Assembly: GCF_003634585.1 (NCBI RefSeq)
Contig: NZ_RBLG01000002.1
Coordinates: 806,001-870,000 of the forward strand
From: Gillisia mitskevichiae
GTDB taxonomy: Bacteria; Bacteroidota; Bacteroidia; Flavobacteriales; Flavobacteriaceae
Reading direction: 5' to 3'
Length of the DNA: 64,000 nt
Position numbers and translations under genes: made by a program. The notes below the pieces were generated by a model. That model did no database searches and was not told the origin of the DNA. It saw only the letters and a list, made by a program, of their open reading frames with translations. Below, piece by piece: positions 3,580-60,814 of the stretch (the stretch's first letter is position 1; each line of letters opens with the position of its first letter).

Positions 3580-3622
3580 TGACAATCCTCATATTCTCTA
3601 AGCCTTTAGCTTTTTATTTTTG
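3580..3622 (+). promoter_or_regulatory. Fnr/Crp-type box and -7 element of hemN
   Basis: Dyad TGACAATCCTCA at 3580-3591 and a perfect Bacteroidota -7 element TATTTTTG at 3615-3622. Their centres are 33 bp apart, the spacing found at all such boxes in this window. The inferred transcription start is about 3627, giving an 18-base leader to the hemN ATG. Confidence 0.72.
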
Positions 3623-3644
3623 AACATCATAAATAGAAATAACT

Positions 3645-5009
3645 ATGAGTTCAAGTTTAATTTCAAAATACAATGTTGCGGGTCCTAGATATACTAGTTA
3701 TCCAACTGTTCCTTACTGGGATGATAAAAAGTTTTCATTAAGATCTTGGAAAGAAACTATAAAAAAAGGTTTTAAAGAAAGTAATACTTCTGAAGGAATC
3801 AGTATTTATATACATCTCCCCTTTTGCGAAAGTCTCTGCACCTTTTGTGGGTGTAGCAAACGAATCACTAAAAATCATTCTGTAGAGATTCCTTATCTAA
3901 GATCTGTGATAAAAGAATGGGAAATGTATTGCGATCTTTTAGAGGAAAGGCCAATAATTAAAGAGCTTCACCTTGGCGGTGGAACTCCGACCTTCTTTTC
4001 TATAGAAAGCTTAAACTTACTCTTAGATGGCATTTTTAGAGTAGCAACAAAAGCAGAAAACACAGAATTAAGTTTTGAAGGTCATCCCAATAACACTACA
4101 AAAGAGCATTTATCTTTATTTTCTGAATTAGGTTTTCAGAGGGTTAGTTATGGTGTTCAAGATTATAATGAAAAAGTTCAAAAATCTATTCATAGAATTC
4201 AGTCTTTCGAAAATGTAAAGAAAGTTACCCAAGATGCACGGGAGATTGGTTTTACTTCTGTTGGACATGATATTATTTTTGGCTTACCCTTTCAAACTAA
4301 GGAACATATTATTTATACCATAGAGCGCACAAAGGAATTAATGCCAGACAGGATCGCCTTTTATAGTTATGCTCATGTTCCATGGATAAAAGGGAACGGC
4401 CAAAGAGGCTTTAAGGATGAAGATCTTCCAACGGCAGAAGAAAAGCGGGAACAATACGAAATTGGCAAAAAGATGCTTTTGGAAGCTGGCTATTTTGAAA
4501 TTGGGATGGATCATTTTGCACTTAGCACAGATAGTCTTTACCAAGCTGTCGAAAACAACACATTACACAGAAATTTCATGGGCTATACCACCTCTAAAAC
4601 TCGAGTAATGATAGGACTTGGAGTATCAGCAATAAGTGACAGCTGGTATGGCTTTGCTCAGAATGTAAAAGGAGTAGAAGAATATCAGAATTTAATTGAA
4701 AATAATATTTCTCCTGTCTATAGAGGACATATACTTACAAAGGAAGATCTAATAATTAGAAAACACATTCTTAACCTAATGTGTAACTTCAAAACAACTT
4801 GGTTAACACAAAATGATTTCTTTGAGGAACTGCCGCAGGCTCTTCATGCTTTAGAAGAAATGGCTAATGATGGATTGGTAGAATTAAATAGTAATTATAT
4901 TAAGCTCACAGAACGCGGCAAACCATTTGTAAGAAATGTATGTATGGCCTTTGATCGTAGATTACAAAAGAACAAGCCCGAGACTCAGTTGTTTTCTATG
5001 ACTGTTTAG
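3645..5009 (+). CDS. hemN: oxygen-independent coproporphyrinogen III oxidase
   Basis: Radical SAM enzyme that decarboxylates coproporphyrinogen III to protoporphyrinogen IX without oxygen, in the cytoplasm. Seen: the HemN start motif YNVAGPRYTSYPT at residues 9-21, the CxxxCxxCxC cluster motif (Cys 61, 65, 68, 70; the first three bind the 4Fe-4S cluster), LGGGTPTF, and a HemN C-terminal domain. The length of 454 residues matches the E. coli enzyme (457). The gene is monocistronic: it has its own Fnr-type box upstream and a strong terminator downstream. Haem supply under low oxygen fits the many haem proteins around it (cbb3 oxidase, globin, candidate haem-PAS kinases). Confidence 0.96.
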   Translation: MSSSLISKYNVAGPRYTSYPTVPYWDDKKFSLRSWKETIKKGFKESNTSEGISIYIHLPFCESLCTFCGCSKRITKNHSVEIPYLRSVIKEWEMYCDLLEERPIIKELHLGGGTPTFFSIESLNLLLDGIFRVATKAENTELSFEGHPNNTTKEHLSLFSELGFQRVSYGVQDYNEKVQKSIHRIQSFENVKKVTQDAREIGFTSVGHDIIFGLPFQTKEHIIYTIERTKELMPDRIAFYSYAHVPWIKGNGQRGFKDEDLPTAEEKREQYEIGKKMLLEAGYFEIGMDHFALSTDSLYQAVENNTLHRNFMGYTTSKTRVMIGLGVSAISDSWYGFAQNVKGVEEYQNLIENNISPVYRGHILTKEDLIIRKHILNLMCNFKTTWLTQNDFFEELPQALHALEEMANDGLVELNSNYIKLTERGKPFVRNVCMAFDRRLQKNKPETQLFSMTV

Positions 5010-5026
5010 TAGGTTTACTATAGTAT

Positions 5027-5060
5027 AAAAAAAGGTCGGAAATTCCGACCCTTTTTTTTT
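5027..5060. terminator. bidirectional terminator between hemN and usp
   Basis: Stem GGTCGG / CCGACC (5034-5039 with 5045-5050) around a 5-base loop, flanked by an A-run on the left and a run of nine or more T on the right. It can terminate hemN on the plus strand and the convergent usp gene on the minus strand. Confidence 0.85.
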
Positions 5061-5074
5061 GCGAAGCATCTATT

Positions 5075-5905
5075 TTATATTTTCATGGTTAGCACCGGCA
5101 TCGTAGCATGATTAGCAACATCTTCCCCATAACTTCCGTAGAAAAAATGACTTAAACCTTTGCGTCCGTGCGTAGGCATTATAACTATATCGGCTTCATT
5201 AGATTTACAATAATTGTACACTCCACTTTCTAAACTATAATCATCATAAAATTTAATTGTAGGAGGTTCCAACTCATTAAGCTTTGTAGCATCTAGAAAT
5301 TTATAGAATTTTTCATACATCTCACTGCTGCTGTGGAATTTCTCTGGTTGATTTATAAAGAGTATTTCCATTTCACTATCTAGATTAAGCAAGAAATTTC
5401 GGGCTTTAATATAAACGTTTACAGATTCCAATTCCAGATCACTCACAAAAATAGCCTTCTTAATACTAAAATTTTTCATGCTCTCTTTTACTACAAGAAC
5501 TGGTATTTCTGAAGTCCTAATCACTTTTTCTGTGTTAGAACCAATAAACATTTCAGCAAAACCGGTTGCACCTTGAGAACCCATTACTATAAGCTCTGCC
5601 TGAAACTCTTTGGCAATTTCATTGATCTCACTAAAAACTTTATAGTTTCTAATTGCATCTATAACTTCTATATCCTTTAGGTAAGGTTTATCTAAAAATT
5701 CATCAAACCTCTTTTTAGCTAATTTCATATAATACATGCCATTAAATACTTCTTCTGCCTCATCTTTACTAAGAAAGGCATTAGACAGTCCTAGCAGGTG
5801 AACTACAATTATCTTAGCATCGTTTTTTTTAGCAAGACTGGCGGCTACTTCAAGAGCATATTCAGAATATTCGGAAAAATCTACAGGTACTAATATTGTT
5901 TTCAT
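5075..5905 (-). CDS. universal stress protein, tandem UspA domains
   Basis: Cytoplasmic UspA-family protein of 276 residues made of two Usp domains. The N-terminal domain starts KTILVPVDFSEYSEYAL and keeps the nucleotide-binding signature G-2x-G-9x-G-S (GSQG...GSNT, about residues 109-124). The C-terminal domain has a near-copy (PTHGRKG...YGS) with Pro in place of the first Gly. It is most like the Usp at 43606-44442, with which it shares length and the DYxLExGxY segment; these two differ from the other seven Usp proteins in the window. Partner and ligand are unknown; ATP binding is inferred. A box at 6151-6162 could drive it through a 210-base leader. Confidence 0.93.
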   Translation of the reverse strand: MKTILVPVDFSEYSEYALEVAASLAKKNDAKIIVVHLLGLSNAFLSKDEAEEVFNGMYYMKLAKKRFDEFLDKPYLKDIEVIDAIRNYKVFSEINEIAKEFQAELIVMGSQGATGFAEMFIGSNTEKVIRTSEIPVLVVKESMKNFSIKKAIFVSDLELESVNVYIKARNFLLNLDSEMEILFINQPEKFHSSSEMYEKFYKFLDATKLNELEPPTIKFYDDYSLESGVYNYCKSNEADIVIMPTHGRKGLSHFFYGSYGEDVANHATMPVLTMKI

Positions 5906-6119: not shown

Positions 6120-6162
6120 CGAAGCTAGCATACAAAAGACTTACAAAGTATGACGCTCATCA
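6120..6162 (-). promoter_or_regulatory. Fnr/Crp-type box upstream of usp, with a long leader
   Basis: Dyad TGACGCTCATCA at 6151-6162. On the minus strand a one-mismatch -7 element TAGCTTCG (6120-6127) lies at the standard 33-bp spacing and predicts a start near 6115, which leaves a 210-base leader before the usp ATG at 5905. In the plus direction the octamer at that spacing is poor (TATGTACA), but a perfect TAGTTTTG at 6200-6207 could serve the small membrane-protein gene independently. The gap 5906-6287 holds only very short ORFs. Confidence 0.5.
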
Positions 6163-6735: not shown

Positions 6736-7998
6736 TTGCAAAATACATTTCAGGATAAAGGTGAAATTTTCAATCTCTTGTTCGAGGCTGCTTCAGAAGG
6801 AATTATTGTAGTAGATAGTACTCAACATATAGTTGCGGTAAATGTGGCTGCGGAAAATATGTTTGGATATAAAACAGGAGAATTAATTCAGCAACCATTG
6901 AATTTATTGATTCCAAAGAAATATCATTCCAATCATCATCATCATTTTGAGAATTTTATAGATAATAGTGAGAAAAGGCAAATGGGCCATGGGAGAGTTC
7001 TTCATGGTATTAAAAAAGATGGTTCTTTATTTCCTGTGGAAGCAGGCCTAAACCCATTTAAAAAGGACGGGCAAGAATATGTTATGTCGCTAATTATAGA
7101 TATTAGCGTACGTATGGAAACCGAACTCCAGATAAATGAACTCAACTCACATCTTGAAGAGAAAATTAAAACGAGAACTGGGGAGCTAAGTGAAAGCATT
7201 AATAAATTAAAGGAACTAAATAATAATCTTCAAGCTGAAGTCTCTAAGAGGAAAGCTGCTGAAGAAAAAATTAAAGATGCCTTGCAAAAAGAAGTAGAAC
7301 TTAATGAGTTAAAAACAAAATTTCTCTCCTTAGTTTCTCATGAATTTAAAACTCCTTTAAGTGGGATACTTACCTCGGCAACGCTCACCGAAAAGTATAC
7401 AGAAAATGAGCAACAAGATAAGCGGGAGAAACATCTAGGAACTATTAGAAATAAAGTACATTATCTTAATAATATTCTTAACGATTTCTTATCTATAGAA
7501 CGATTAGACAGCGGGAAAGGCCAGTATAAATATGCCGATTTCAGTTTAAAGCGTTTAATTAATGAAGTGATCTACAATGCAAACGTTACTTTAAAAGATG
7601 GACAAGAAATAAATTATCCAAAAGACATAGAAGATATAATCATCTATCAGGATGAAAAAATACTTGAGTTAATACTATCCAATATTTTAGGGAATGCCAT
7701 TAAATACTCTCCAGAAAACACCAGCATTAAACTTGAAGTGCTGTTAACGGAAGACAAGATATTGTTTAAAATTAAGGATAAGGGAAGAGGAATTCCCAAA
7801 AAAGATCAAAAACATATATTTGAGAGATATTTTCGAGCCGAAAATGCATTGCTAGATCAAGGAACCGGTATTGGTTTAAATATCTCTAAAACCCATTTAG
7901 AAAATATGGGCGGACAAATAAGTTTTTTAAGTGAAGAACATAAAGGAACACAGTTTAAAATAGAAGTTCCAATTTTAACCCCCGAAAAAAGCAACTAG
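6736..7998 (+). CDS. FixL-like PAS sensor histidine kinase (copy 1)
   Basis: Soluble hybrid-free kinase of 420 residues with no membrane segment. PAS domain at about 12-128, long coiled coil at 130-190, HisKA with phospho-acceptor His202 (VSHEFKTPL), and an ATPase domain with the N box NAIKYS, G1 DKGRGIP and G2 GTGIGLNIS. In the PAS domain, His67 aligns with the proximal haem ligand of FixL and Arg87, exactly 20 residues later, with the distal oxygen-sensing Arg (H200/R220 in Bradyrhizobium). The flanking KxxY...EKRxxGxxR...KDGSxFP pattern is also shared. Haem binding is inferred. The start is TTG: an in-frame TAA lies directly before it, and its length then matches the paralogue at 40855-42018. 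The next gene starts one base after the stop. No box lies upstream. Confidence 0.9.
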   Translation: MQNTFQDKGEIFNLLFEAASEGIIVVDSTQHIVAVNVAAENMFGYKTGELIQQPLNLLIPKKYHSNHHHHFENFIDNSEKRQMGHGRVLHGIKKDGSLFPVEAGLNPFKKDGQEYVMSLIIDISVRMETELQINELNSHLEEKIKTRTGELSESINKLKELNNNLQAEVSKRKAAEEKIKDALQKEVELNELKTKFLSLVSHEFKTPLSGILTSATLTEKYTENEQQDKREKHLGTIRNKVHYLNNILNDFLSIERLDSGKGQYKYADFSLKRLINEVIYNANVTLKDGQEINYPKDIEDIIIYQDEKILELILSNILGNAIKYSPENTSIKLEVLLTEDKILFKIKDKGRGIPKKDQKHIFERYFRAENALLDQGTGIGLNISKTHLENMGGQISFLSEEHKGTQFKIEVPILTPEKSN

Positions 7999-9042
7999 AT
8001 GAAAAAAATATTACTGATAGAAGATGATGTAACTGTTCGTGAAAACACAGCAGAACTATTGGAACTTTCAGAGTATGAAGTTATTACTGCCAATGATGGC
8101 CGTAAGGGTTGTGTAAAGGCGCAATCAGAAATACCCGACATTATTATATGTGATATCATGATGCCAGAAATGGATGGGTATGGAGTGCTTCAAGAACTTA
8201 GTGGGAATATTAAAACGGCCAATATTCCTTTTATTTTCCTTTCAGCTAAAACAGAACATAAGGACATTCGCCGGGGAATGGATCTGGGAGCCGATGATTA
8301 TCTTACCAAACCATTTGAAGAAGTAGATCTATTAAGTGCAATAGAGAGCAGGCTAGCGAAAGTTGCAATTTTAAACTCTATCCCAAAGGATCAAGTTCCA
8401 GCGGTAGAGAATGGCAAACTAAAAAATCTATCTGAGCTTCGTGAGCAATTTGGATCTTATCCTATCTTATATTTTAAAAAAGGAGAATTTATATACGAGC
8501 AAGGAAAACACTCTAATTTTTTCTATCTCGTAAAGCGTGGAGTTGTAAAAACACACCATAATGATGATAAAGGAAAGGAACTTATAACCTATTTATATAA
8601 GACCGACGATTTCTTCGGAAATGCAAGTGAAGATCCTCATGCTTCAAATTCTGAGTATGCTACGGCAATGGAAGATACAGAGCTTTACTCCATCTCAAGG
8701 GAAGATTTTTATGAGATTTTGCTCCAAAATCCACATATTAGCATCAAACTAGTGGAGATCTTAAATAATAATCTAGCAGGGCTTAAAAAACAATTAATGA
8801 ATATGGCTTATGGTTCTGTTAGAAAAAAAACAGCGAATACCATCTTGCTTTTTGCTGAAAAAATTGAAAAACATCCTCTACAATCTATTCGGATATCCCG
8901 TTCAGATCTAGCTAGCGTTGCTGGTATGGCAGCAGAAAGTTTAATAAGAACATTGTCTGAATTTAAGAAGGAAGGTTTAATAGAGATCGAAGGTAGAAAT
9001 ATTAAATTACTCAATTCTCAAGCTTTAAGAAATATAGATTAA
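7999..9042 (+). CDS. receiver-Crp/Fnr fusion transcription regulator (copy 1)
   Basis: Response regulator of 347 residues that joins a CheY-like receiver (1-120; Asp52 in ICDIMMPEMDG, Lys104 in TKPF) to a Crp-type effector domain (about 145-265, FKKGEFIYEQGKHSNFFY) and a Crp helix-turn-helix (about 285-340). No Fnr cysteine cluster is seen, so the oxygen signal would come from phosphorylation by the kinase it adjoins. The recognition helix AAESLIRTL keeps the Glu and Arg that read TGA half-sites in Fnr and Crp, which fits the TGA-N6-TCA boxes across this island. In rhizobia the same job takes two proteins, FixJ and FixK. A sibling (39794-40849) has the same recognition residues. Confidence 0.9.
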   Translation: MKKILLIEDDVTVRENTAELLELSEYEVITANDGRKGCVKAQSEIPDIIICDIMMPEMDGYGVLQELSGNIKTANIPFIFLSAKTEHKDIRRGMDLGADDYLTKPFEEVDLLSAIESRLAKVAILNSIPKDQVPAVENGKLKNLSELREQFGSYPILYFKKGEFIYEQGKHSNFFYLVKRGVVKTHHNDDKGKELITYLYKTDDFFGNASEDPHASNSEYATAMEDTELYSISREDFYEILLQNPHISIKLVEILNNNLAGLKKQLMNMAYGSVRKKTANTILLFAEKIEKHPLQSIRISRSDLASVAGMAAESLIRTLSEFKKEGLIEIEGRNIKLLNSQALRNID

Positions 9043-9070: not shown

Positions 9071-9113
9071 TGATTTTCATCATTTTTAAAAGGGAAGGCT
9101 TATTCTAATTTTG
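9071..9113 (+). promoter_or_regulatory. Fnr/Crp-type box and -7 element of usp
   Basis: Dyad TGATTTTCATCA (9071-9082) and perfect -7 element TAATTTTG (9106-9113), centres 33 bp apart. Inferred start near 9118, 21 bases before the ATG. The same dyad sequence is found upstream of ccoS. Confidence 0.82.
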
Positions 9114-9138: not shown

Positions 9139-9945
9139 ATGAATGTCTTAATTCTGACAGATTTTTCGGAAGTATCCAAAAATGCCAGTAGGTATGCATT
9201 AGACTTCCTAAAAGATACCCCATCTACAATTTTTCTACTTAATATTCAGGATATAAAATTGAATGGGGCGTCCAGTGAAAAATTGGGCGAGAAAATGCAG
9301 TTGATATCTGAAAAGATGCATACTGGTATGGAGAGTTTGAAAACTTATAATACCAATTCTAAACATAAATTTCATCTTAGCCTTTCCCTAGATAATTTAA
9401 TTACGGCGGTTAGAGGTTGCGTAGATGAGAATAAAATAGATTTGATCTTTATTGGTGCAGCTAGTCAACAAGAAAGAAAGCATCCTCTACTTGGAAATCA
9501 TGCGTACGAGATAATTCAAAAAGTTAAGTGTAATATTATAGCTGTGCCAGATAAGGCGAAGTTTGTTACTCCTAAACGTATGATCTTGCCAATAGATTAC
9601 TCTGTACTATCAGAAAGAAAATCATTTCAAATATTAAGAGATCCAAATTATGTGAAAAGTGAGAGTCTAACGGTGATGAATGTTAATGAGAACGACAATA
9701 ATTCTTTAAATAGAAAAATGATCCAAGAATTATGGGAAAGTGATGCTAAAGAAAATATGAACTTCACTTCTTTAAATAAAGACACATTTTTCAACACAGA
9801 TTTTTTGCATGATATTCAGGAAAAATATGATGTTATTGTTATTCTTGGGAAGAACCTGAGTATTTCAGATAAGCTATTAAATAGCCGTTACGGCTTATGT
9901 ACCAAAATAAGTAATAAATTACCTATTATGATCCTGCATGAATAA
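9139..9945 (+). CDS. universal stress protein, tandem domains, degenerate nucleotide site
   Basis: UspA-family protein of 268 residues beginning MNVLILTDFSEVSKNA. Two Usp-like domains are recognisable by the opening strand and by the second opening KRMILPIDYS near residue 151. Unlike the other eight Usp proteins here, the G-2x-G-9x-G-S/T signature of the first domain is broken (GAASQQ... LGNH): the second Gly and the final Ser are lost. It may have lost ATP binding or act as a dimer partner of another Usp; this is inference. It follows the kinase/regulator pair but has its own Fnr-type promoter. Confidence 0.88.
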   Translation: MNVLILTDFSEVSKNASRYALDFLKDTPSTIFLLNIQDIKLNGASSEKLGEKMQLISEKMHTGMESLKTYNTNSKHKFHLSLSLDNLITAVRGCVDENKIDLIFIGAASQQERKHPLLGNHAYEIIQKVKCNIIAVPDKAKFVTPKRMILPIDYSVLSERKSFQILRDPNYVKSESLTVMNVNENDNNSLNRKMIQELWESDAKENMNFTSLNKDTFFNTDFLHDIQEKYDVIVILGKNLSISDKLLNSRYGLCTKISNKLPIMILHE

Positions 9946-9996: not shown

Positions 9997-10398
9997 TCAG
10001 GATTGAGGTTTTTGAGCAGACCTGCTCTGGTAGATCCTTAAAAATAAGTGTGTAGACATTTTCCTGGCATTATCCTTAAGCCGCTGAGCCATTTCACCTT
10101 CAAAAAGCTCATCTATAGTTTGAAACCAAAGGTTCATCCAGATCCCAAAATGATATTCTGTGATACTATTATTATTTTCTCTATCAACCTTAGCATGAGC
10201 CATTGCGGGATTTCCATGAAAACCACCGGTAAAAAATAAGTTAGTTTCCCAAAAATCGGTTAGCTTTTCCAAATGCGCATCCCAGTCTTGAATACTGTTT
10301 TCAAAAAAATAACCTATTTCTTCATTTTTTCGGACTTTGTTATAAAAACTTAAAACTAGTTTATTTACATCTGAACGGTTCTTTAGATCCTCTTTCAT
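9997..10398 (-). CDS. group III truncated haemoglobin
   Basis: Truncated (2/2) globin of 133 residues. Seen: the N-terminal helix segment DVNKLVLSFYNKVRK, FFTGGFHGNPAMAHAK in the middle, and TEYHFGIWMNLWFQT, whose His is the likely proximal haem ligand; this order is typical of group III (Ctb-like) proteins. Members bind oxygen or nitric oxide and are often made under low oxygen. It is the second gene of a two-gene operon (3-base gap) driven by the Fnr-type box at 10738-10749. It lies in the cytoplasm. Confidence 0.88.
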   Translation of the reverse strand: MKEDLKNRSDVNKLVLSFYNKVRKNEEIGYFFENSIQDWDAHLEKLTDFWETNLFFTGGFHGNPAMAHAKVDRENNNSITEYHFGIWMNLWFQTIDELFEGEMAQRLKDNARKMSTHLFLRIYQSRSAQKPQS

Positions 10399-10401: not shown

Positions 10402-10683
10402 TTATAATATATTTATTAGGATGAACGTACTGCTTGCTAGGATACTTATTATTAAGGAATTAAAAACGAACTTAGGTTTTAATTGAGCCAGGACAGATGC
10501 ATTGTACCACATACAAGCTACTACGATTAAACCTAACTGTATCATGTCTACAACATTATGTCCATTCATTAAAATAAGCATTGCTGCTATAGAACCTAAA
10601 CAACTAGATACAAGAATGCCCGTTGTTGCCCCTGCAAAATAATCCTTTTTAAATTCTGATAATTGTCTTTGATAAATTGTCAT
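10402..10683 (-). CDS. small integral membrane protein
   Basis: Protein of 93 residues, function not recognised. After a charged N terminus (YQRQLSEFKKDYFAGA) there are three hydrophobic stretches, about residues 18-38, 44-65 and 72-92, so it is probably an inner-membrane protein. It is the first gene of an operon with the truncated globin, and its start is set by the predicted transcription start 19 bases upstream. Confidence 0.7.
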   Translation of the reverse strand: MTIYQRQLSEFKKDYFAGATTGILVSSCLGSIAAMLILMNGHNVVDMIQLGLIVVACMWYNASVLAQLKPKFVFNSLIISILASSTFILINIL

Positions 10684-10706: not shown

Positions 10707-10749
10707 TAAATTTAAATTCTAGAGCGTTTTTAAAATATGACGTACATCA
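10707..10749 (-). promoter_or_regulatory. Fnr/Crp-type box and -7 element of the globin operon
   Basis: Dyad TGACGTACATCA (10738-10749) and -7 element TAAATTTA (10707-10714, minus strand), centres 33 bp apart. Inferred start near 10702, 19 bases before the ATG at 10683. Confidence 0.78.
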
Positions 10750-14742: not shown

Positions 14743-14785
14743 CAAAGTTGGAGAGGAAGTGCTTTCTAAATAATGATGGATGTCA
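14743..14785 (-). promoter_or_regulatory. Fnr/Crp-type box and -7 element of the YceI-porin operon
   Basis: Dyad TGATGGATGTCA (14774-14785) with CAACTTTG (14743-14750, minus strand; one mismatch to TAnnTTTG) 33 bp away. Inferred start near 14738, 20 bases before the ATG at 14718. Confidence 0.65.
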
Positions 14786-14838: not shown

Positions 14839-14881
14839 TGACTGCTGTCATTTTTTAAAGTCTAAAAATCTTTAAAATTCG
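14839..14881 (+). promoter_or_regulatory. Fnr/Crp-type box of ccoI, weak -7 element
   Basis: Dyad TGACTGCTGTCA (14839-14850), a good palindrome. The octamer at the standard 33-bp spacing is AAAATTCG (14874-14881), two mismatches from TAnnTTTG. Inferred start near 14886, 17 bases before the ATG. The dyad lies 65 bp from the box of the divergent yceI operon. Confidence 0.55.
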
Positions 14882-17714: not shown

Positions 17715-17757
17715 TGATTTTCATCATTTTTTATACTGCTCTTCACAAATACTTTTA
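17715..17757 (+). promoter_or_regulatory. Fnr/Crp-type box and -7 element of the cbb3 oxidase operon
   Basis: Dyad TGATTTTCATCA (17715-17726), identical to that upstream of the usp gene at 9139, and -7 element TACTTTTA (17750-17757), centres 33 bp apart. Inferred start near 17762, 15 bases before ccoS. In rhizobia the equivalent fixNOQP operon is the classic FixK target. Confidence 0.83.
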
Positions 17758-17971: not shown

Positions 17972-17973
17972 CT

Positions 17974-29760: not shown

Positions 29761-29803
29761 TAAAGTTAACTGCAGCATAGGAACATTAAAATGACATTTC
29801 TCA
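29761..29803 (-). promoter_or_regulatory. Fnr/Crp-type box and -7 element of the WG-repeat gene
   Basis: Dyad TGACATTTCTCA (29792-29803) and -7 element TAACTTTA (29761-29768, minus strand), centres 33 bp apart. Inferred start near 29756, 17 bases before the ATG. Confidence 0.72.
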
Positions 29804-29917: not shown

Positions 29918-29960
29918 TGATTTTTATCATTCTTTTACCACAACATTCCTGTTAATTTTA
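29918..29960 (+). promoter_or_regulatory. Fnr/Crp-type box and -7 element of usp
   Basis: Dyad TGATTTTTATCA (29918-29929) and -7 element TAATTTTA (29953-29960), centres 33 bp apart. Inferred start near 29965, 14 bases before the ATG at 29979. The 239-base gap 29740-29978 therefore holds two back-to-back promoters, each with its own box. Confidence 0.82.
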
Positions 29961-32494: not shown

Positions 32495-32537
32495 TAAAAG
32501 TACACCTCAAAAAAGCTAAATGAAATGACAATTGTCA
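32495..32537 (-). promoter_or_regulatory. Fnr/Crp-type box (perfect palindrome) and -7 element of hsp20
   Basis: Dyad TGACAATTGTCA (32526-32537), fully palindromic, and -7 element TACTTTTA (32495-32502, minus strand), centres 33 bp apart. Inferred start near 32490, 31 bases before the ATG. It lies between hsp20 and the end of the metallo-beta-lactamase gene (32564). Confidence 0.83.
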
Positions 32538-38742: not shown

Positions 38743-38785
38743 TAAAACTACGCTAGAGATATCTTTAAAAAAATGACAAGAATCA
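38743..38785 (-). promoter_or_regulatory. Fnr/Crp-type box and -7 element of the usp-nuclease operon
   Basis: Dyad read on the minus strand as TGATTCTTGTCA (38774-38785) and -7 element TAGTTTTA (38743-38750), centres 33 bp apart. Inferred start near 38738. It should control about 6.2 kb of genes, down to 32564. Confidence 0.8.
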
Positions 38786-39738: not shown

Positions 39739-39781
39739 CAAAATTATTTTAGTTTGCTGTTGAAAAGAATGATAAATATCA
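39739..39781 (-). promoter_or_regulatory. Fnr/Crp-type box and -7 element of usp
   Basis: Dyad TGATAAATATCA (39770-39781) and perfect -7 element TAATTTTG (39739-39746, minus strand), centres 33 bp apart. Inferred start near 39734, 14 bases before the ATG. The box begins 13 bases after the end of the receiver-Crp gene. Confidence 0.83.
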
Positions 39782-39793: not shown

Positions 39794-40849
39794 CTATTCT
39801 ATTGAGTTTAATTTTTCTAGATCCAAAATTCTAATATTTCTACCTTCTATTTCTATCAAGCCCTTTTTCTTAAAGCCCGAAAGAGTTCGTATTAAACTCT
39901 CGGTAGCAATACCTGCAACACTTGCTAGATCATATCGAGAAATTTTTATAGCATCTTCAGGTTTTTTATCGAGAATTTTAGCAAACTGCAGAATTGTATT
40001 AGCAGTTTTTTTTCTTACCGAACTATAAGCCATCTGTAATAGTTGCTCCTTGATATCACATATGTTTTCTGTTAGAAGGTTTAAAATTTCTACAGAAACC
40101 TCTTTATTGCTCCCTAGAATTTCCTTGAGCTCATTCTTAGAAATACCTGCTACCTGTACATTTTCTACAGCCATTACAGATTCTTGATATATAATACTTT
40201 CTGCAAACGAGGTGAAGCCTAAAAAATCATCTGCTTTATGAAGCGCAGTAATTAATTCTTTACCATTCCCATTCATTTTATAACTTTTAACCACACCTTC
40301 CAAAATGAGATAAATATTGTTAGAGCGCTCTCCTTCCTTATAAATTAGATCCCCTTTGTTATAACTTGATATAACCCCATTGTCATCAAAAAAATTCTTA
40401 AGCTCATTTAGATTTCTAAGTGAGCTATTTTCAATTTGCCCTGTGGGCGAACTATTTTTTACTAAAGTGTGATTTAAGATCTCTGCTTTGGCCAACCTAC
40501 TTTCTACTGCGCTTATTAATTCTTCTTCTTCAAAAGGTTTGGTAATATAATCGTCTGCGCCAAGATCCATTCCCTTTCGCACCTCTTTATGTTCGGTTTT
40601 AGCTGAAAGAAAAATAAAAGGAATATGAGAGGTTGTAGAGTCCTTAGAAACCTTATCTAAAACGCCATAACCATCTAATTCTGGCATCATAATATCGCAA
40701 ATTATAAGATCTGGAATATGAGCATTCGCTTTATCTATTCCAATTTTACCATTTGCAGCTGTAATCACGTGGAAGTTATATAATTCCAAAAGCTCTGCTG
40801 TATTATCTCTTAAAGCTGCATCATCCTCTATTATCAAGATTGTTTTCAT
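39794..40849 (-). CDS. receiver-Crp/Fnr fusion transcription regulator (copy 2)
   Basis: Protein of 351 residues, paralogue of the one at 7999-9042 with the same domain order: receiver (Asp52 in ICDIMMPELDG, TKPFEEEEL), Crp-type effector domain (about 148-270, YNKGDLIYKEGERSNNIY), and helix-turn-helix near 290-345. The recognition helix ATESLIRTL has the same DNA-reading residues as copy 1, so both should bind the same TGA-N6-TCA boxes. No Fnr-type Cys cluster. The gene starts 5 bases after the FixL-like kinase stop, forming a kinase-regulator operon. It probably integrates with copy 1, either as a second oxygen range or as positive feedback. Confidence 0.9.
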   Translation of the reverse strand: MKTILIIEDDAALRDNTAELLELYNFHVITAANGKIGIDKANAHIPDLIICDIMMPELDGYGVLDKVSKDSTTSHIPFIFLSAKTEHKEVRKGMDLGADDYITKPFEEEELISAVESRLAKAEILNHTLVKNSSPTGQIENSSLRNLNELKNFFDDNGVISSYNKGDLIYKEGERSNNIYLILEGVVKSYKMNGNGKELITALHKADDFLGFTSFAESIIYQESVMAVENVQVAGISKNELKEILGSNKEVSVEILNLLTENICDIKEQLLQMAYSSVRKKTANTILQFAKILDKKPEDAIKISRYDLASVAGIATESLIRTLSGFKKKGLIEIEGRNIRILDLEKLNSIE

Positions 40850-40854: not shown

Positions 40855-42018
40855 TTAATTTGATGAAATTGGAACCCTAATAGAAAAAGTACTCCCCACA
40901 TTTTCTTCACTTATAAAGTTAATTGTACCTCCTAAATTTTCCAAATGGCTTTTTACTATATTAAGTCCGATCCCTGTACCTTGATTTATAAGAGCATTCT
41001 CTGCTCTAAAATACCTATTAAATATATGCTTTTGCTCCTGCTCTGGAATTCCAATTCCCTCATCTTTTATATGAATGGTCAATACCTTATCATCCAGTAA
41101 AACTTCAATATCTATAGTAGAATTATCTGATGAATATTTAATGGCATTATTTATAAGATTTGTAATAATGAGATGTAATATCTTCTCATCAAATTCTAAA
41201 AAAATACTATCAATATTTTCGGGGTAATTAATTTTTTGTCCATCCTTAAGCAACATATTGGCATAATAGACCACTTCATTTATGATCTTACTTAAAGGAA
41301 AAGTCGTGAACTTATAATTCACATTTCCGCTTTCTAAACGTTCAATAGATAAGAAATCATTAATTATATTATTCAGGAATTTCACTTTATTCTGAATGGT
41401 TTTTATATGCTTATCGCGCTTCTCCTGTTGTTCTGTATTAGGATATTTACCAATAAGAATAGATGAAGTGAGAATTCCTCCTAATGGGGTTTTAAATTCA
41501 TGAGATACCAAGGAGAGAAATTTGGTTTTCAACTCATTTAAATACTTTTCTTTTCGAAGGGCTTCTTTTAATTGATGGGTTCTTTCTTCAACCTTTTTCT
41601 CAAGATCTGCATTTAAATCTATTATTTCTTGCTCTGCCTTCTTACGGATGCTAATATCTATTACTAATGCCATTACGTAGGTACTATCATAAATATTAAA
41701 AGGATTTAATCCTGCTTCTACAGGGAATTGGGAACCATCCTTTCTTAATCCATACAAATCTCTACCATGCCCCATTTTCCTTTTACCACTATTTTCTAAA
41801 AAGGCTTCTACATGATGCATATGTACGTGATGATATTTCACAGGGATTAAAGTATCCAAAGAACTTCCAATAAGTTCTCCTTTTTCATAGCCGAAAAGAG
41901 TATTGGCAGCATTATTAGTAGCAACAATTTCCTGAGATTTATTAACTACAATAATACCTTCTGATATTGCTTCAGAAAGAATCCTGAAAATAATACTATC
42001 TCTTTTGAAACCCTCCAT
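40855..42018 (-). CDS. FixL-like PAS sensor histidine kinase (copy 2)
   Basis: Soluble kinase of 387 residues. PAS domain about 12-127, a shorter coiled coil than copy 1, HisKA with VSHEFKTPLGG, and ATPase motifs NAIKYS, DEGIGIP and GTGIGLNIV. His66 aligns with the FixL proximal haem ligand and Arg86, 20 residues on, with the distal Arg; the surrounding KYHHVHMHH...GKRKMGHGRDLYG...KDGSQFPVE closely matches copy 1. Haem and oxygen binding are inferred from these residues. Its promoter would share the box at 42070-42081 with the divergent terB-like gene: TTATTTTA lies at the standard spacing and gives a 16-base leader. Confidence 0.9.
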   Translation of the reverse strand: MEGFKRDSIIFRILSEAISEGIIVVNKSQEIVATNNAANTLFGYEKGELIGSSLDTLIPVKYHHVHMHHVEAFLENSGKRKMGHGRDLYGLRKDGSQFPVEAGLNPFNIYDSTYVMALVIDISIRKKAEQEIIDLNADLEKKVEERTHQLKEALRKEKYLNELKTKFLSLVSHEFKTPLGGILTSSILIGKYPNTEQQEKRDKHIKTIQNKVKFLNNIINDFLSIERLESGNVNYKFTTFPLSKIINEVVYYANMLLKDGQKINYPENIDSIFLEFDEKILHLIITNLINNAIKYSSDNSTIDIEVLLDDKVLTIHIKDEGIGIPEQEQKHIFNRYFRAENALINQGTGIGLNIVKSHLENLGGTINFISEENVGSTFSIRVPISSN

Positions 42019-42038: not shown

Positions 42039-42112
42039 TAAAATAATACTGCATCGATATAACTGATAATGATATTTATCATAGTTAGCTGTAAATGAAC
42101 CTGTTAAATTTA
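42039..42112. promoter_or_regulatory. shared Fnr/Crp-type box between terB-like gene and kinase copy 2
   Basis: Dyad TGATATTTATCA (42070-42081). On the plus strand -7 element TAAATTTA (42105-42112), 33 bp away, predicts a start near 42117. On the minus strand TTATTTTA (42039-42046, one mismatch) at the same spacing predicts a start near 42034, 16 bases before the kinase gene. If both work, the sensor kinase is under control of its own regulator. Confidence 0.72.
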
Positions 42113-42541: not shown

Positions 42542-42543
42542 CT

Positions 42544-42586
42544 TGATAATAATCATACTTTTAAAAAGAGACAGTCTTTAGTTTTG
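42544..42586 (+). promoter_or_regulatory. Fnr/Crp-type box and -7 element of the DUF3298 lipoprotein gene
   Basis: Dyad TGATAATAATCA (42544-42555) and perfect -7 element TAGTTTTG (42579-42586), centres 33 bp apart. Inferred start near 42591. The dyad starts 3 bases after the terB-like stop. Confidence 0.75.
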
Positions 42587-45626: not shown

Positions 45627-45700
45627 TAAAACTACTTGCTTTCTCACAAATCACATATGATAAAAGTCATATGAATAGAGATACATGAAAATTATATTTA
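45627..45700. promoter_or_regulatory. bidirectional Fnr/Crp-type box between the ArsC-like and SDR genes
   Basis: Dyad TGATAAAAGTCA (45658-45669) with a matching -7 element on each side at 33 bp: TATATTTA (45693-45700) on the plus strand, start near 45705, 33 bases before the SDR gene; TAGTTTTA (45627-45634) on the minus strand, start near 45622, 95 bases before the ArsC-like gene. Both octamers fit TAnnTTT(A/G). Confidence 0.82.
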
Positions 45701-47330: not shown

Positions 47331-47366
47331 TAAAAAACAGGGATCTCAACTAAGATCCCTGTTTCT
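47331..47366. terminator. bidirectional terminator downstream of peroxiredoxin
   Basis: 10-bp stem ACAGGGATCT / AGATCCCTGT (47337-47346 with 47353-47362), 6-base loop. T-rich on the plus side (TTTCTTT) and, read on the minus strand, followed by a run of six T then ATTTAAC. It can end the peroxiredoxin transcript and also a minus-strand RNA that comes from 47695. Confidence 0.85.
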
Positions 47367-47493
47367 TTGAAAATGTACTGCAATTGATTAAATATCTTGG
47401 CAAAGTCTACAAATTAATCTAGAAAACAAGCAATTTAAATCAATACAGACACTTCAAGATCTTTTAACAATATAAAATTTAAGACAAAATTTT

Positions 47494-47695
47494 AAATCGG
47501 GGAAACCCCTAAAGACCTCCCCGATTTATAGAAGACTAAAAATGTTCTATATACAGAGAGTATGTTAAACATTCCTTTTCGAAAATGTTTCATCACTTCT
47601 ACAAGAACAAACTTGACTTCTAATGATTTTTACTGCATTTCTGCAATAAGAATCAATGCTTTTATAAGTATCAAAGAACTTTTACTTTTAACTAG
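47494..47695 (-). ncRNA. candidate oxygen-regulated small RNA
   Basis: The gap of 455 bases between the convergent peroxiredoxin and PEP synthase genes has a complete promoter pointing into it on the minus strand. The transcript would start near 47695 and can end at a hairpin AAATCGGGGA / TCCCCGATTT (47494-47503 with 47518-47527), or read on to the stronger terminator at 47331-47366 (about 365 bases). An internal stem AAACATT / AATGTTT is predicted around 47571-47593 region. A 33-codon ORF (ATG 47591-47593, stop 47492-47494) also lies in it, so a small protein mRNA is possible. No known RNA family is recognised. Confidence 0.5.
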
Positions 47696-47699
47696 AACA

Positions 47700-47742
47700 C
47701 TAAGATACAAGAGCTTTACAATTTAAAACATGACATTTATCA
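47700..47742 (-). promoter_or_regulatory. Fnr/Crp-type box with -7 element in a convergent gap
   Basis: Dyad TGACATTTATCA (47731-47742), embedded in a longer palindromic context (ACATGA...TCATGT), and TATCTTAG (47700-47707, minus strand; one mismatch to TAnnTTTG) with centres 33 bp apart. It cannot serve either neighbouring gene, since both end here. Inferred start near 47695. Confidence 0.65.
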
Positions 47743-50661: not shown

Positions 50662-50735
50662 CTAATTTAAATGCATTGAAGAGTTCTAAATATGATATTT
50701 ATCATTCATAAATAACTGGATTTCAGTGAAATTTG
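50662..50735. promoter_or_regulatory. bidirectional Fnr/Crp-type box ahead of the exporter operon
   Basis: Dyad TGATATTTATCA (50693-50704), identical to that at 42070-42081. Plus strand: GAAATTTG (50728-50735), one mismatch, start near 50740, 11 bases before the ATG at 50751. Minus strand: TAAATTAG (50662-50669), one mismatch, start near 50657. Both octamers are 33 bp from the dyad centre. Confidence 0.68.
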
Positions 50736-53095: not shown

Positions 53096-53104
53096 AAAGT
53101 TAAG

Positions 53105-53799: not shown

Positions 53800-53842
53800 T
53801 GATAATTATCATTCCAATAAGTTTCCTATATAATTAATTTAG
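53800..53842 (+). promoter_or_regulatory. Fnr/Crp-type box and -7 element ahead of a small ORF and the LOG gene
   Basis: Dyad TGATAATTATCA (53800-53811), fully palindromic, and TAATTTAG (53835-53842, one mismatch), centres 33 bp apart. Inferred start near 53847, 19 bases before the ATG of a 53-codon ORF. Confidence 0.72.
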
Positions 53843-53865: not shown

Positions 53866-54027
53866 ATGGCTTTATCTTCGAATATCTTGGATTCTAACGA
53901 TACATTTAACTTATACCTAAAAACTAGCCAGGTGGAGATCTATCACTTTTGGATGAACTACCAATCCCGATCCCAAGGTTTAGATCAGAAAAAATTTATT
54001 ATTCAAGATCATGAGAAAAACCAATAA
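53866..54027 (+). CDS. small ORF overlapping the LOG gene start
   Basis: ORF of 53 codons (ATG 53866, stop 54025-54027). It begins MALSSNILDSNDTFNLYLKT and ends in a charged stretch (FIIQDHEKNQ). The composition is balanced, unlike chance translations of AT-rich DNA, and its position 19 bases after a predicted transcription start matches the leaders of the other regulon genes (11-33 bases). It overlaps the LOG gene by 17 bases in another frame, so translation could be coupled. No family recognised; could also be a leader peptide or not coding. Confidence 0.5.
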   Translation: MALSSNILDSNDTFNLYLKTSQVEIYHFWMNYQSRSQGLDQKKFIIQDHEKNQ

Positions 54028-54766
54028 TAAATTACCTGTTTTAACCGAGGAACGTTCGTTTCTTCAAGGTCCAAGATCTAGGCTATCTGAATTGTATTTT
54101 ACGGCAAAAGTTGCATGGTATTTCATACAATCTTTCCGAAAAATGCACTTTTTAGGACCTTGTGTTACCGTATTTGGATCTGCAAGGATAGGCCCAAACA
54201 GCCCTTTTTATAAGCAAACCGAAGAATTAGGCAGAGCTTTGGCAAAAATGGGATTTACAGTAATGACTGGAGGAGGACCTGGAATAATGGAAGCTGCCAA
54301 TAAAGGAGCTTTTGAAGCGGGTGGTTTCTCTGTTGGCTGTAATATTGTATTACCTATAGAACAAAGCCCAAATCCCTATTTGCATAAATGGATTAATATT
54401 CCCTACTTTTTTGTGCGCAAGGTTATGTTGGTAAAATATTCTTATGCCTTCATTGTTATGCCTGGTGGATTTGGAACTATGGATGAACTTTTTGAATCCC
54501 TTACTCTTATACAAACCCAAAAAATAGATGAATTCACAATAGTACTCTTCGGAAAAGAATATCATTCAGAGTTATTGGAACATTTGGAGATCATGAAGTT
54601 AAATGGGACTATCTCTGAAAAAGATCTCCAATATATTTTCGTGACAGATTCCGTAGATGATATAGTTACTAAATTAGATACCTCAACAATTAAAAAATAT
54701 AAGTTGAAGAAAACTCCAATAAGAAGAAAGTGGTGGCTTGGAGAAAAAGTGATAAAAAATAAATAA
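54011..54766 (+). CDS. LOG-family protein (nucleoside 5'-monophosphate phosphoribohydrolase type)
   Basis: Protein of 251 residues of the lysine-decarboxylase-like LOG family. Seen: VTVFGSARIGPNSPFY near the N terminus, TGGGPGIMEAANKGAFEAGG and the signature PGGFGTMDELFE. LOG enzymes cleave the ribose-5-phosphate from nucleoside monophosphates; bacterial members act in nucleotide turnover or stress. It may be co-transcribed with the small ORF before it and the patatin gene 60 bases after it. Confidence 0.9.
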   Translation: MRKTNNKLPVLTEERSFLQGPRSRLSELYFTAKVAWYFIQSFRKMHFLGPCVTVFGSARIGPNSPFYKQTEELGRALAKMGFTVMTGGGPGIMEAANKGAFEAGGFSVGCNIVLPIEQSPNPYLHKWINIPYFFVRKVMLVKYSYAFIVMPGGFGTMDELFESLTLIQTQKIDEFTIVLFGKEYHSELLEHLEIMKLNGTISEKDLQYIFVTDSVDDIVTKLDTSTIKKYKLKKTPIRRKWWLGEKVIKNK

Positions 54767-58654: not shown

Positions 58655-58697
58655 CAAATATAGCAGGGGTTTTCGCCAATAAAAATGATATTCATCA
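58655..58697 (-). promoter_or_regulatory. Fnr/Crp-type box and -7 element of the mla operon
   Basis: Dyad TGATATTCATCA (58686-58697) and perfect -7 element TATATTTG (58655-58662, minus strand), centres 33 bp apart. Inferred start near 58650, 12 bases before mlaE. It places outer-membrane lipid transport in the regulon. Confidence 0.82.
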
Positions 58698-58829: not shown

Positions 58830-58872
58830 TGACATATATCATTTGATAAAAGAAAAGGTTACTGTTATTTAG
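58830..58872 (+). promoter_or_regulatory. Fnr/Crp-type box ahead of exonuclease III, weak -7 element
   Basis: Dyad TGACATATATCA (58830-58841). The octamer at 33 bp is TTATTTAG (58865-58872), two mismatches. Inferred start near 58877 gives an untranslated leader of 120 bases that carries a strong AGGAGGAG purine run near 58894 but no ORF of note. The dyad could also be accidental. Confidence 0.45.
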
Positions 58873-58996
58873 AATCTATAAATATCTGTAAAGGAGGAGA
58901 AATATTAATTTTATTAAAGTGTCTTGCTAATTAAAAAGAAGAATTACTAACAATATTTAAAGGAGTTTTTATAATTCTTACTAAAGCATACCGGCC

Positions 58997-59761
58997 ATGA
59001 TTATAATTTCTTGGAATGTAAATGGCCTTCGAGCCATCATTAAAAAAGGGTTTATAGATACCATAACTAGTCTTAACCCAGATATACTATGCTTACAGGA
59101 AGTCAAAGCTTCTAAAAGTGAGGTATTAAAAGCATTGACGCCCTTAAGAATATATGGGATCCATATGAATCCAGCTTTGAGAAAGGGGTATTCAGGAACT
59201 GTGTTGCTTTGTAAAATAGCTCCATCTAAAATAGAAAAAGCTATGGGTATAGAAGAGCATGACACAGAAGGTAGGATTATTTGTGCCACTTATGAGGATT
59301 TTTATTTAGTTAATGTTTATGTACCTAATTCGGGTCAGCAATTAAACAGGCTGGAGTACAGAAAAAAGTGGGATCAAGATTTTCTAGAATATTTAAATGA
59401 TCTAAAAAAGAAAAAACCAATACTCGTTATAGGCGATTTTAATGTAGCTCATCAACCTATCGATCTCAAAAATGATAAGGCCAACTACAATAAAACGGCA
59501 GGATATACTCAAGTTGAAATTGATGGAATGGATAATTTATTAGCTACAGGTTTGGTGGACACCTTTAGGCATTTTCATCCAAATGAGATTGCTTATACCT
59601 ACTGGACCTATCGCTTTAAGGCGAGAGAAAATAATATTGGTTGGAGAATAGACTATTTTCTGGTAAGTGATACTTTACTTCCAAAAATTAGTGCTGCAGA
59701 GATCCTCTCAGATATTTATGGATCAGATCATTGCCCCATTAAACTTACAATAAACCTATGA
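58997..59761 (+). CDS. xth: exodeoxyribonuclease III
   Basis: Protein of 254 residues of the exonuclease III/AP endonuclease family. Seen: ISWNVNGLRAIIKKGF at the N terminus, CLQEVKASKSE (metal-binding Glu), VNVYVPNSG, GDFNVAHQPIDLKN (catalytic Asp-Asn) and the C-terminal SDHCPI (catalytic His). It cuts DNA at abasic sites and trims 3' ends in base-excision repair. It converges with and overlaps by a few bases the LigD-type polymerase gene. Confidence 0.95.
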   Translation: MIIISWNVNGLRAIIKKGFIDTITSLNPDILCLQEVKASKSEVLKALTPLRIYGIHMNPALRKGYSGTVLLCKIAPSKIEKAMGIEEHDTEGRIICATYEDFYLVNVYVPNSGQQLNRLEYRKKWDQDFLEYLNDLKKKKPILVIGDFNVAHQPIDLKNDKANYNKTAGYTQVEIDGMDNLLATGLVDTFRHFHPNEIAYTYWTYRFKARENNIGWRIDYFLVSDTLLPKISAAEILSDIYGSDHCPIKLTINL

Positions 59762-60685
59762 TCCTATGCCAACAGGTAAGATCTGTTTTAACTTTATAAC
59801 TTCAGTAAAAATGTCTCCTAATTTTTTAATTCTTTCAGGAACATTTTTAATGGTAAAATCTGTGGGGATAAATCCACCTTTTTTAACTTCATCCCAGTTT
59901 AATGGTGTAGATATGGGTGCCATATCATAGCCACGAATAGTATACGGTGCGGCTGTATTTCTACTAATAACATTTTGCATATAATCTAATGTCACTTTAT
60001 CTTTTTGGTGTGTTTTACCTTTTTTCCTTTGGGTAGTGACCAATTTCGGGTATTGTTCAACTAACAAATCACTTATGGATTTTACCCACCCCCTAACAGT
60101 CTCAAAAGAATATTTTGGTACAATAGGAACATATATATGCAGGCCGGTACCTCCTGTAGTTTTTGGATATCCTTTTAAATTATAAGAAAGTAGTAACTCA
60201 TTTAGATACCCAGCTGCCTTTAAAACATTTTTAAAATATAAAACATCTGCAACATCCAGATCAAAAATAGCAATATCCGGATGATCAAAATTAGGGGCTT
60301 CTGCAGACCATAAATGGAATTCTATACCGCCTCTCGCTGCTAGCCATAATATTCCCGCTGCATTTTGAATCAAGAGAACTTGGATGATCTTATCTTTACT
60401 TATTTCATTATATGGAACGGTGACAAACAAGCGTGTCTCTTGGACTTTATCCTCAAAATTTCGTTTATAAAATGAAAAATCTTCAATCCCTCTCGGGAAA
60501 AAATGCATAGTTGCAGGTCTATTCTTTAAATAGGGTAAGAGGATTGGAGCAATTTGTTTATAATAATTTAGTAAATCCAACTTAGTATAGTTCTCTTTTG
60601 GCCAGTAGATCTTGTGGGGATTGGAAATAGCTAACTCAAAACCATCTATATTCCAGATTGTTGATTTTTCTTCAAGCTTTTTCAT
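59756..60685 (-). CDS. LigD-type polymerase/primase (PolDom), stand-alone
   Basis: Protein of 309 residues that corresponds to the polymerase domain of bacterial ligase D (archaeo-eukaryotic primase fold). Seen: SNPHKIYWPKENYTKLDLL at the start, RPATMHFFPRGIEDFSFYKRNF, the metal-binding DLD in IAIFDLDVADV, and TTGGTGLHIYVPI with KVTLDYMQN. No ligase or phosphoesterase domain is attached and no Ku gene is in the window. It fills gaps in double-strand break repair; such repair matters in non-growing cells. Possibly driven from the shared box at 60772-60783. Confidence 0.9.
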   Translation of the reverse strand: MKKLEEKSTIWNIDGFELAISNPHKIYWPKENYTKLDLLNYYKQIAPILLPYLKNRPATMHFFPRGIEDFSFYKRNFEDKVQETRLFVTVPYNEISKDKIIQVLLIQNAAGILWLAARGGIEFHLWSAEAPNFDHPDIAIFDLDVADVLYFKNVLKAAGYLNELLLSYNLKGYPKTTGGTGLHIYVPIVPKYSFETVRGWVKSISDLLVEQYPKLVTTQRKKGKTHQKDKVTLDYMQNVISRNTAAPYTIRGYDMAPISTPLNWDEVKKGGFIPTDFTIKNVPERIKKLGDIFTEVIKLKQILPVGIGS

Positions 60686-60740
60686 TCTTATTTGCTTTTC
60701 AATTCACGATTCTAAAAAAGCGCCTTATTATTATGCTGAC

Positions 60741-60814
60741 TGAAATTAAACAACATTCTTCAATATTAACATGATCGAAATCATTCTTAATATCAACCTA
60801 CCTAATTACATTTA
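60741..60814. promoter_or_regulatory. Fnr/Crp-type box between ligD-pol and the erythromycin esterase-like gene
   Basis: Dyad TGATCGAAATCA (60772-60783). Plus strand: -7 element TACATTTA (60807-60814) at 33 bp, start near 60819, 17 bases before the ATG. Minus strand: TAATTTCA (60741-60748, one mismatch) at the same spacing, start near 60736, 51 bases before ligD-pol. Confidence 0.78.

Follow-up and report, generated by a model that had tools for sequence, protein, structure and literature searches.

The 64-kb stretch of the Gillisia mitskevichiae genome (3.585 Mb) analyzed here, C2:806001-870000 (the window), carries an island of composite promoters, in which a TGA-N6-TCA dyad stands at a fixed distance from a -7 box of the form TAnnTTT(A/G). 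There is strong support for a real regulon of class II Crp/Fnr-type promoters that is larger than the window. We assign a probability of roughly 0.7 to the reading that these boxes are the operator–promoter units of one activator family—a heme-PAS kinase together with a response regulator that joins a receiver to a Crp module (receiver-Crp)—and that they serve a low-oxygen regulon.

A first-pass annotation had listed 21 such dyads in intergenic gaps, 14 with a perfect octamer, five with one mismatch (6151, 14774, 47731, 50693, and 53800), and two with two (14839 and 58830). Every coordinate is correct and the split is reproduced exactly. Twenty of the dyads are wholly intergenic; dyad 14774 is intragenic only if the first ATG of its open reading frame (ORF) is used, and the likely start of the signal peptide (14718) is downstream of it. 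The window contains 32 TGA-N6-TCA sequences in total, the 11 unlisted ones all being located within ORFs. A strict composite is defined here as the dyad plus a perfect TAnnTTT(A/G) that starts 35 bases after the dyad start, which places the two centers 33 bp apart. At this offset 15 octamers are found, while the remaining offsets between 0 and 90 average 0.11—one sharp peak at the proposed spacing. That the pattern is not accidental is borne out when the 36 intergenic gaps (5,693 bases) are dinucleotide-shuffled 1000 times: this yields 0.009 composites (maximum 1) and 1.42 ± 1.15 dyads (maximum 5), compared with 14 and 21 observed. For the whole window, 32 dyads and 15 composites compare with 22.2 and 0.1 in 200 shuffles, and control DNA of the same genome (sixteen 20-kb stretches, 320 kb) holds 98 dyads and no composite. 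A genome scan at the fixed spacing gives 26 strict composites versus three for the reversed-pattern control; 15 of these are in the window and three more are close to it. The looser dyad TGAYNNNNRTCA alone shows no genome-wide enrichment (178 sites versus 186 for the reversed pattern).

Among the 15 strict arms, the base right after TCA is always T, and A at -3 is conserved in 14. By its sequence, the octamer can be classed as the Bacteroidota sigma-A type of -7 box, TAnnTTT(A/G), similar to TAnnTTTG; it departs from the final G of the latter, since its last base is A in 10 of the 15 arms and G in five. Promoters of this type also bear a TTTG element at -33, whose G (position 17) is present in one of the 15 strict arms, and this near-absence would fit a dependence on an activator. 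In a start-site map of Flavobacterium psychrophilum, the -7 box occupies -12 to -5 (PMC9723704). With the 33-bp spacing and this box position, the dyad center would come to lie at -41.5, in agreement with the class II position of about -41.5 that had been proposed; start sites in G. mitskevichiae are hereby placed by the box of the related flavobacterium. This geometry supports a Crp/Fnr-type activator in class II position. Leaders had been expected to measure mostly 11-33 bases: they would indeed be short, with a predicted range of mostly 11-45 nt and several longer exceptions (95 nt for 45658(-), 120 nt for 58830, and 210 nt for 6151(-)). Behind the composites of relatives, the median leader is 20 nt.

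An independent measure comes from a matrix of 51 columns, whose training set consisted of 242 composites from the receiver-Crp neighborhoods of 54 relatives and excluded the window sequence. At 12 bits or more, its matches in the window are 21 promoter arms, which belong to 18 different dyads; the 320 kb of control DNA yield no match at this threshold and a single one at 10 bits. Because they reach at least 12 bits, 18 of the 21 dyads can be regarded as well supported; dyad 6151 is marginal at 9.8 bits, and 14839 and 58830 fail with less than 8 bits. Three dyads (42070, 45658, and 50693) are bidirectional. The extent of 57 kb given by the first-pass annotation was an understatement, as the cluster continues rightward past the window to about C2:878 kb with seven further sites (at least 12.8 bits) at C2:870202-878068. 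An isolated site is found at C2:785450, and no site of at least 10 bits lies in C2:786-806 kb or 890-910 kb. Within the window, 51 of the 62 ORFs listed from 3645 on belong to same-strand runs with gaps of at most 200 bp behind a supported promoter—a rule of thumb rather than an operon map. Beyond the window (L037, C2:870001-890000), the genes behind the seven sites include a Usp-like one (universal stress protein, by eye) and a pair made up of an alpha/beta-hydrolase-like (by eye) and a phosphoribosyltransferase gene, the run of which extends into the window at 63915-62782. Other strict sites of the genome (L028, L029, and L030) stand before secreted repeat protein, Usp-like, and FAD-oxidoreductase-like genes (by eye).

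The composite box is conserved around receiver-Crp genes throughout the Bacteroidota. In a comparative set of 80 receiver-Crp loci (54 top-ranked and 26 lower-ranked), 275 strict composites are counted versus two for the reversed control; in the 54 top-ranked loci, offset 35 accounts for 242 composites versus a median of 3 at offsets 12-90. Their distribution is uneven, with at least one in 69 of the 80 loci and none in L118, L121, L123, L126, L127, and L129-L134. In 63 loci with a full-length HK1-like kinase, the kinase gene is always directly 5' of the regulator gene (gap -44 to +125), and a dyad lies within -200 to +60 of the kinase start in 49 of the 63, with roughly six expected from the shuffled rate of the window. 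In several Flavobacteriaceae, the kinase start follows a dyad by only 35-52 bp, and no octamer is present at +35, as might be anticipated if the boxes served repression, alone or besides activation, or defined a class of promoters that has no signal of its own. The fixed spacing, its single peak, and the complete absence of composites from the control DNA speak against this possibility, which we consider very improbable.

The window itself encodes two kinase–regulator pairs, HK1-RR1 and HK2-RR2, each kinase gene directly preceding its regulator gene. RR1 and RR2 are 55% identical with near-identical recognition helices, and the kinases are 61% identical. The closest named relative of RR1 is found in Gillisia sp. 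CAL575 (86%). An alignment of 83 receiver-Crp proteins (two from the window and 81 from 79 of the 80 loci) shows D52, K104, E313, and R317 to be invariant in 83 of 83. Hereby, the Pfam Response_reg domain, the phospho-acceptor D52, and the adjacent kinase gene characterize these proteins as response regulators, and E313 and R317 form the E-x3-R pair of an Fnr-type recognition helix. The four conserved Fe-S cysteines of FNR proper are absent, with only C38 and C51 in RR1 and only C51 and C264 in RR2. The region in which a cAMP-binding cassette would be expected (positions 208-222) is variable among the 83 proteins. Among the best 25 of 110 NCBIfam matches, none reaches its cut-off for RR1 or RR2. 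In a tree of receiver-Crp proteins, a flavobacterial clade stands apart from a mixed Bacteroidota clade; RR1 and RR2 are on separate branches, RR2 within the common flavobacterial kind and RR1 with Gillisia and Christiangramia. Several branches are long, one being a second Pricia copy inside the mixed clade. A receiver-Crp protein with 44% identity also occurs on a contig labelled Deltaproteobacteria (L131), for which transfer or a binning error is possible.

The kinase PAS domains are FixL/DosP-like and probably bind heme. For HK1, the best 11 of 24 PDB matches are named FixL or DosP (from 5.7e-15), followed by a 'Heme pas sensor protein' and by yddU, which we take to be the gene of DosP; for HK2, DosP and FixL are found as well, with another kinase at rank four of 15. 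If H200 is taken as the heme histidine of FixL and R220 as its distal arginine, these align with H67 and R87 of HK1, and both residues are common to HK1 and HK2. Of 64 other kinases (HK2 counted), 61 retain H67. With heme-PAS-like kinases, a cbb3 oxidase, and HemN, a response to oxygen becomes plausible, and oxygen is, judged from these sequences, the likely signal. Nitric oxide, too, is sensed with the help of heme-PAS proteins and of Crp/Fnr proteins with this type of box, and the regulon holds a group III truncated hemoglobin; the main signal could thus be another heme ligand or a redox cue such as nitric oxide, CO, or the respiratory state. The best PAS matches are, however, named oxygen sensors, and low-oxygen regulons typically include cbb3 oxidase and HemN among their targets; such a cue appears unlikely. 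In F. psychrophilum, cbb3 oxidase and heme-synthesis enzymes go up under oxygen limitation according to PMC9723704, whose text contains neither 'crp' nor 'fnr' nor 'response regulator'. Low-oxygen gene sets elsewhere have members in common (PMC3759415 and PMC11841059).

On the scale of the class, 295 genomes were sampled, 141 of which carry a close receiver-Crp protein. With the own genome set apart, the 140 genomes with receiver-Crp hold a mean of 10.0 composites and the 154 without 5.3, with controls of 1.6 for both. Among 26 families with both kinds of genome, those with receiver-Crp are richer in boxes in 20. An exclusive association of the box with receiver-Crp genomes can be rejected, as the genomes without the protein are enriched as well; because of this excess, the box is probably shared by further Crp/Fnr proteins.

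Outside the flavobacterial clade, the boxes often come in pairs. The 26 lower-ranked loci show a second octamer peak at offset 57 (31 arms versus 33 at offset 35). Its interpretation as an independent class I position was rejected, as these are the distal members of pairs whose proximal dyad at 35 is often degenerate. Grouped by the receiver-Crp tree—one Lutibacter locus with seven composites had stood among the lower-ranked ones—22 of 28 composites of the 26 loci outside the flavobacterial clade have a dyad (at least 5/6 positions) exactly 22 bp upstream, with other shifts reaching at most 3. In the other 54 loci, this holds for four of 247 composites (other shifts up to 5), three of the four belonging to the Lutibacter branch. 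With up to one mismatch, the tandem pattern is present in 181 of the 295 genomes, against two control matches counted by eye. It is found in 121 of 140 genomes with receiver-Crp (absent from 19) and in 60 of 154 without, an odds ratio of 10 whose p-values are inexact because the genomes are related. The own genome has no tandem, and of eight other genomes of its family one has three; at the window dyads, the mean score at -22 is 1.43/6, the best being 4/6 at 38774. The tandem members would lie at about -41.5 and -63.5 (L107-L128 and the 295 genomes), an arrangement rare in Flavobacteriaceae with Lutibacter loci L084, L091, and L120.

Which protein occupies the boxes is a matter of weighing. 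The genome encodes five cNMP-domain proteins (PF00027 search; a PF13545 search gave four). Two stand-alone Crp proteins bear no recognition-helix E (read by eye), and the fifth, C2:136705 with 196 aa, has a truncated helix PESLSR with the same E-x3-R pair. Hence, an identification of receiver-Crp by elimination had to be dropped because of this matching helix. A stand-alone Crp/Fnr protein of this sort might bind the boxes, with the receiver-Crp pairs merely sharing or modulating the regulon. The box and tandem excess in genomes without receiver-Crp is in line with this, as is a stand-alone protein matching the Crp module in 17 of 18 re-searched genomes of this kind (of 22 with at least three tandems). 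On the other hand, the C2:136705 gene is about 670 kb from the island, the boxes cluster at receiver-Crp genes in the 80 loci and before their kinase genes, and tandems are far more frequent where receiver-Crp is present. This alternative is therefore rather unlikely, if slightly less so than a nonoxygen cue. Since the boxes surround its gene, precede its kinase, and are commoner in genomes carrying it, the receiver-Crp pair is, on sequence grounds, the most likely occupant. The earlier claim of a single Crp/Fnr-type regulator over most of the window thus stands as to coverage; the word 'single' has to be corrected because two receiver-Crp paralogues and the C2:136705 protein exist.

Besides the C2:136705 helix and the excess of single and tandem boxes in genomes without receiver-Crp, further points weigh against a receiver-Crp regulon governed by oxygen. 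No supported box belongs to the HK1-RR1 operon itself, and the dyad that precedes the kinase gene in many Flavobacteriaceae has no accompanying octamer at +35 on the kinase side. Six of the 26 mixed families have fewer boxes in genomes with receiver-Crp, the equivalent of FixL R220 is present in only 41 of the 64 other kinases, and the oxygen data of the F. psychrophilum study (PMC9723704) make no connection to this kinase or this regulator.

In the mechanism we favor—receiver-Crp activation under a heme-PAS kinase—the FixL/DosP-like PAS domain would sense falling oxygen, and the kinase would phosphorylate Asp52 of the receiver-Crp protein. The active dimer would then bind TGA(T/C)-N4-(A/G)TCA centered at -41.5 and touch sigma-A RNA polymerase in class II fashion, with initiation from the TAnnTTT(A/G) box. 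Both kinase–regulator pairs of the island might read the same box, and the HK2-RR2 operon is predicted to be autoregulated through its bidirectional promoter. The regulon would be switched on at low oxygen and serve respiration and survival under this condition through cbb3 oxidase, HemN, truncated hemoglobin, nine Usp, and Hsp20; a PEP-synthase-like enzyme and envelope functions would also belong to it.

The individual promoters and their targets are collected in Table 1. The nine Usp labels were assigned via Pfam in six cases and by eye in three (36141, 37006, and 37871), and the group III assignment of the truncated hemoglobin derives from a PDB sequence match. Of the 265 composites of relatives that have an ORF behind them, 117 (in 56 loci) stand before Usp genes, judged by similarity to window proteins; a further 29 precede a homologue of 42131-42541, which in the window faces the HK2 operon, 12 precede CcoNO, and 62 are unmatched. 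Recurrent genes behind boxes in L056-L095 include ones for short proteins that look, by eye, like ribosome hibernation factors; box-linked genes of relatives carry the putative labels HPF-like, DnaJ-like, and thioredoxin. LigD polymerase is among the further Pfam matches of the island: at 58997-60685, an Exo_endo_phos gene adjoins the LigD primase-polymerase gene, with no box of at least 12 bits for either (9.9 on the LigD side). Two domain fusions were also observed, PCMT with an erythromycin-esterase domain (60836-62779) and an ATP-cone (below cut-off) with an Mrr-type nuclease domain (33931-34779).

Table 1 Promoters, listed sites, and regulatory genes of the window, with matrix scores and the genes behind each site.
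Feature	Position	Strand	Bits	Octamer, targets, and remarks
Promoter	3580..3622	+	21.8	Dyad plus TATTTTTG; HemN 3645-5009
Marginal site TAGCTTCG	6120..6162	-	9.8	210 nt before Usp 5075-5905
HK1, PAS-HisKA-HATPase	6736..7998	+		PAS closest to FixL/DosP heme PAS
RR1, receiver-cNMP_binding-HTH_Crp_2	7999..9042	+		Pfam
Promoter	9071..9113	+	26.9	Dyad plus TAATTTTG; Usp 9139-9945
Promoter	10707..10749	-	30.1	10402-10683 and group III truncated hemoglobin 9997-10398
Promoter	14743..14785	-	14.6	Octamer CAACTTTG, one mismatch; YceI-like 14137-14718 first; run extends to acetyl-CoA hydrolase/transferase 10828-12105
Unsupported listed site	14839..14881	+	<8	Two octamer mismatches; upstream of P-type ATPase 14903-17296
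Promoter	17715..17757	+	31.3	cbb3 oxidase run 17777-24165: FixS, COX1-FixO fusion, FixP, FixG-type, DsbD_2
Promoter	29761..29803	-	25.2	WG-repeat protein 29119-29739, cation P-type ATPase, second acetyl-CoA hydrolase/transferase
Promoter	29918..29960	+	32.0	Usp 29979-30815
Promoter	32495..32537	-	29.5	Hsp20 32040-32459 and downstream genes
Promoter	38743..38785	-	26.4	Run 38719-32564: four Usp (one Pfam, three by eye), Mrr-type protein, beta-CASP metallo-hydrolase, one unknown
Promoter	39739..39781	-	31.8	Usp 38884-39720 (GTG start)
RR2, receiver-cNMP_binding-HTH_Crp_2	39794..40849	-		Pfam
HK2, PAS-HisKA-HATPase	40855..42018	-		PAS closest to DosP/FixL heme PAS
Bidirectional promoter	42039..42112	.	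27.3 (+), 13.6 (-)	(+) 42131-42541; (-) HK2-RR2 operon
Promoter	42544..42586	+	24.9	42636-43559
Bidirectional promoter	45627..45700	.	21.8 and 23.8	Two perfect octamers, one common dyad; (+) SDR and peroxiredoxin; (-) ArsC-like (below Pfam cut-off), 44515-45150, Usp 43606-44442
Candidate non-coding RNA	47335..47696	-		Ends approximate
Promoter without ORF behind	47700..47742	-	20.7	Octamer TATCTTAG, same in two congeners
Bidirectional promoter	50662..50735	.	18.9 and 16.8	(-) run 50633-47766 with PEP-synthase-like gene; (+) HlyD-type exporter run 50751-53779
Promoter	53800..53842	+	12.9	Octamer TAATTTAG; 53-aa ORF 53866-54027 after 19 nt; next long gene Lysine_decarbox-family 54011-54766, 164 nt away; then patatin
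Promoter	58655..58697	-	29.7	MlaE/MlaD run 58638-55583
Unsupported listed site	58830..58872	+	<8	Two octamer mismatches; leader 120 nt
Promoter	60772..60814	+	25.8	PCMT-erythromycin-esterase-type fusion 60836-62779

Behind promoter 47731(-) lies a gene-free stretch of about 360 bases. The fold of 47696-47490 is 4.6 standard deviations better than that of 200 shuffles (z -4.6). Two congeners retain both promoter and RNA (94 and 88%); the DNA of one of them aligns poorly upstream of the dyad. Hence, 47335-47742 (-) is a candidate for a small RNA of the regulon, with a regulon-type promoter before a putatively structured transcript. A search of 13 other congeners, several of them incomplete, gave no full-length match. 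Of 40 genomes (the own included), 11 gave a match at E ≤ 0.01, full length only in the own genome and the two congeners; of eight short matches, seven were inspected and none resembles the unit. Rfam at gathering scores gives no match in the window.

The FixL-FixJ-FixK cascade likewise employs TGA-N6-TCA-type dyads. In rhizobia and Caulobacter, as described in PMC4999443, it resembles the system here by a FixL-type kinase on top, an activator without Fe-S cysteines, and cbb3 oxidase and heme-synthesis targets. It differs by its separate FixJ and FixK and thus two steps, whereas receiver and Crp module are fused here into what would be a one-step circuit, and by the Bacteroidota -7 box of the present promoters. 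FNR/Anr regulons, with class II sites at -41.5, are alike in box, position, and low-oxygen-type targets. Unlike FNR/Anr, the receiver-Crp proteins have no Fe-S cysteine set (two Cys each), and the signal would arrive by phosphotransfer. A large co-regulated cluster is also known from the low-oxygen-activated (lxa) locus of Burkholderia cenocepacia, and the DosR regulon of Mycobacterium is similar; their phyla and regulators differ from those of the island. Usp genes are among those induced at low oxygen in B. cenocepacia (PMC3759415). The NmpRSTU oxygen regulon of Myxococcus xanthus shares a heme kinase and the targets cbb3 oxidase, P-type ATPase, and HemN, and is run by an NtrC-like regulator and a protoglobin kinase (PMC11841059); Usp occurs 12 times in that text, at least in part within its references. 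CRP/FNR homologues from Flavobacteriales and Saprospiraceae metagenome-assembled genomes are Crp/Fnr proteins of Bacteroidota as well, unlike the present ones likened to MalR with predicted carbon sensing, and 'receiver' does not occur in that text (PMC8510549). In searches of open-access literature—most subscription papers being outside this scope—no description of Bacteroidota receiver-Crp regulators or of the box was found.

Similar low-oxygen survival gene sets of cbb3 oxidase, HemN, and Usp are run by different regulator types across phyla. The chances seem about even that the island exemplifies a widespread oxygen circuit of Bacteroidota with what amounts to a FixJ–FixK fusion, where a heme-PAS kinase would act through receiver-Crp directly on a hypoxia-survival regulon. 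Hereby, tandem boxes 22 bp apart—two helical turns, at about -41.5/-63.5—would prevail outside Flavobacteriaceae, where receivers of neighboring dimers may cooperate, the single box would be found mostly in Flavobacteriaceae, and a regulatory RNA would have been gained in this genus. If true, Bacteroidota would own a low-oxygen regulator type with a box specific enough to list its targets from sequence alone. With this system, one could also test directly how receiver phosphorylation acts on a Crp module and whether the two-turn spacing of tandem boxes signifies that receivers cooperate.

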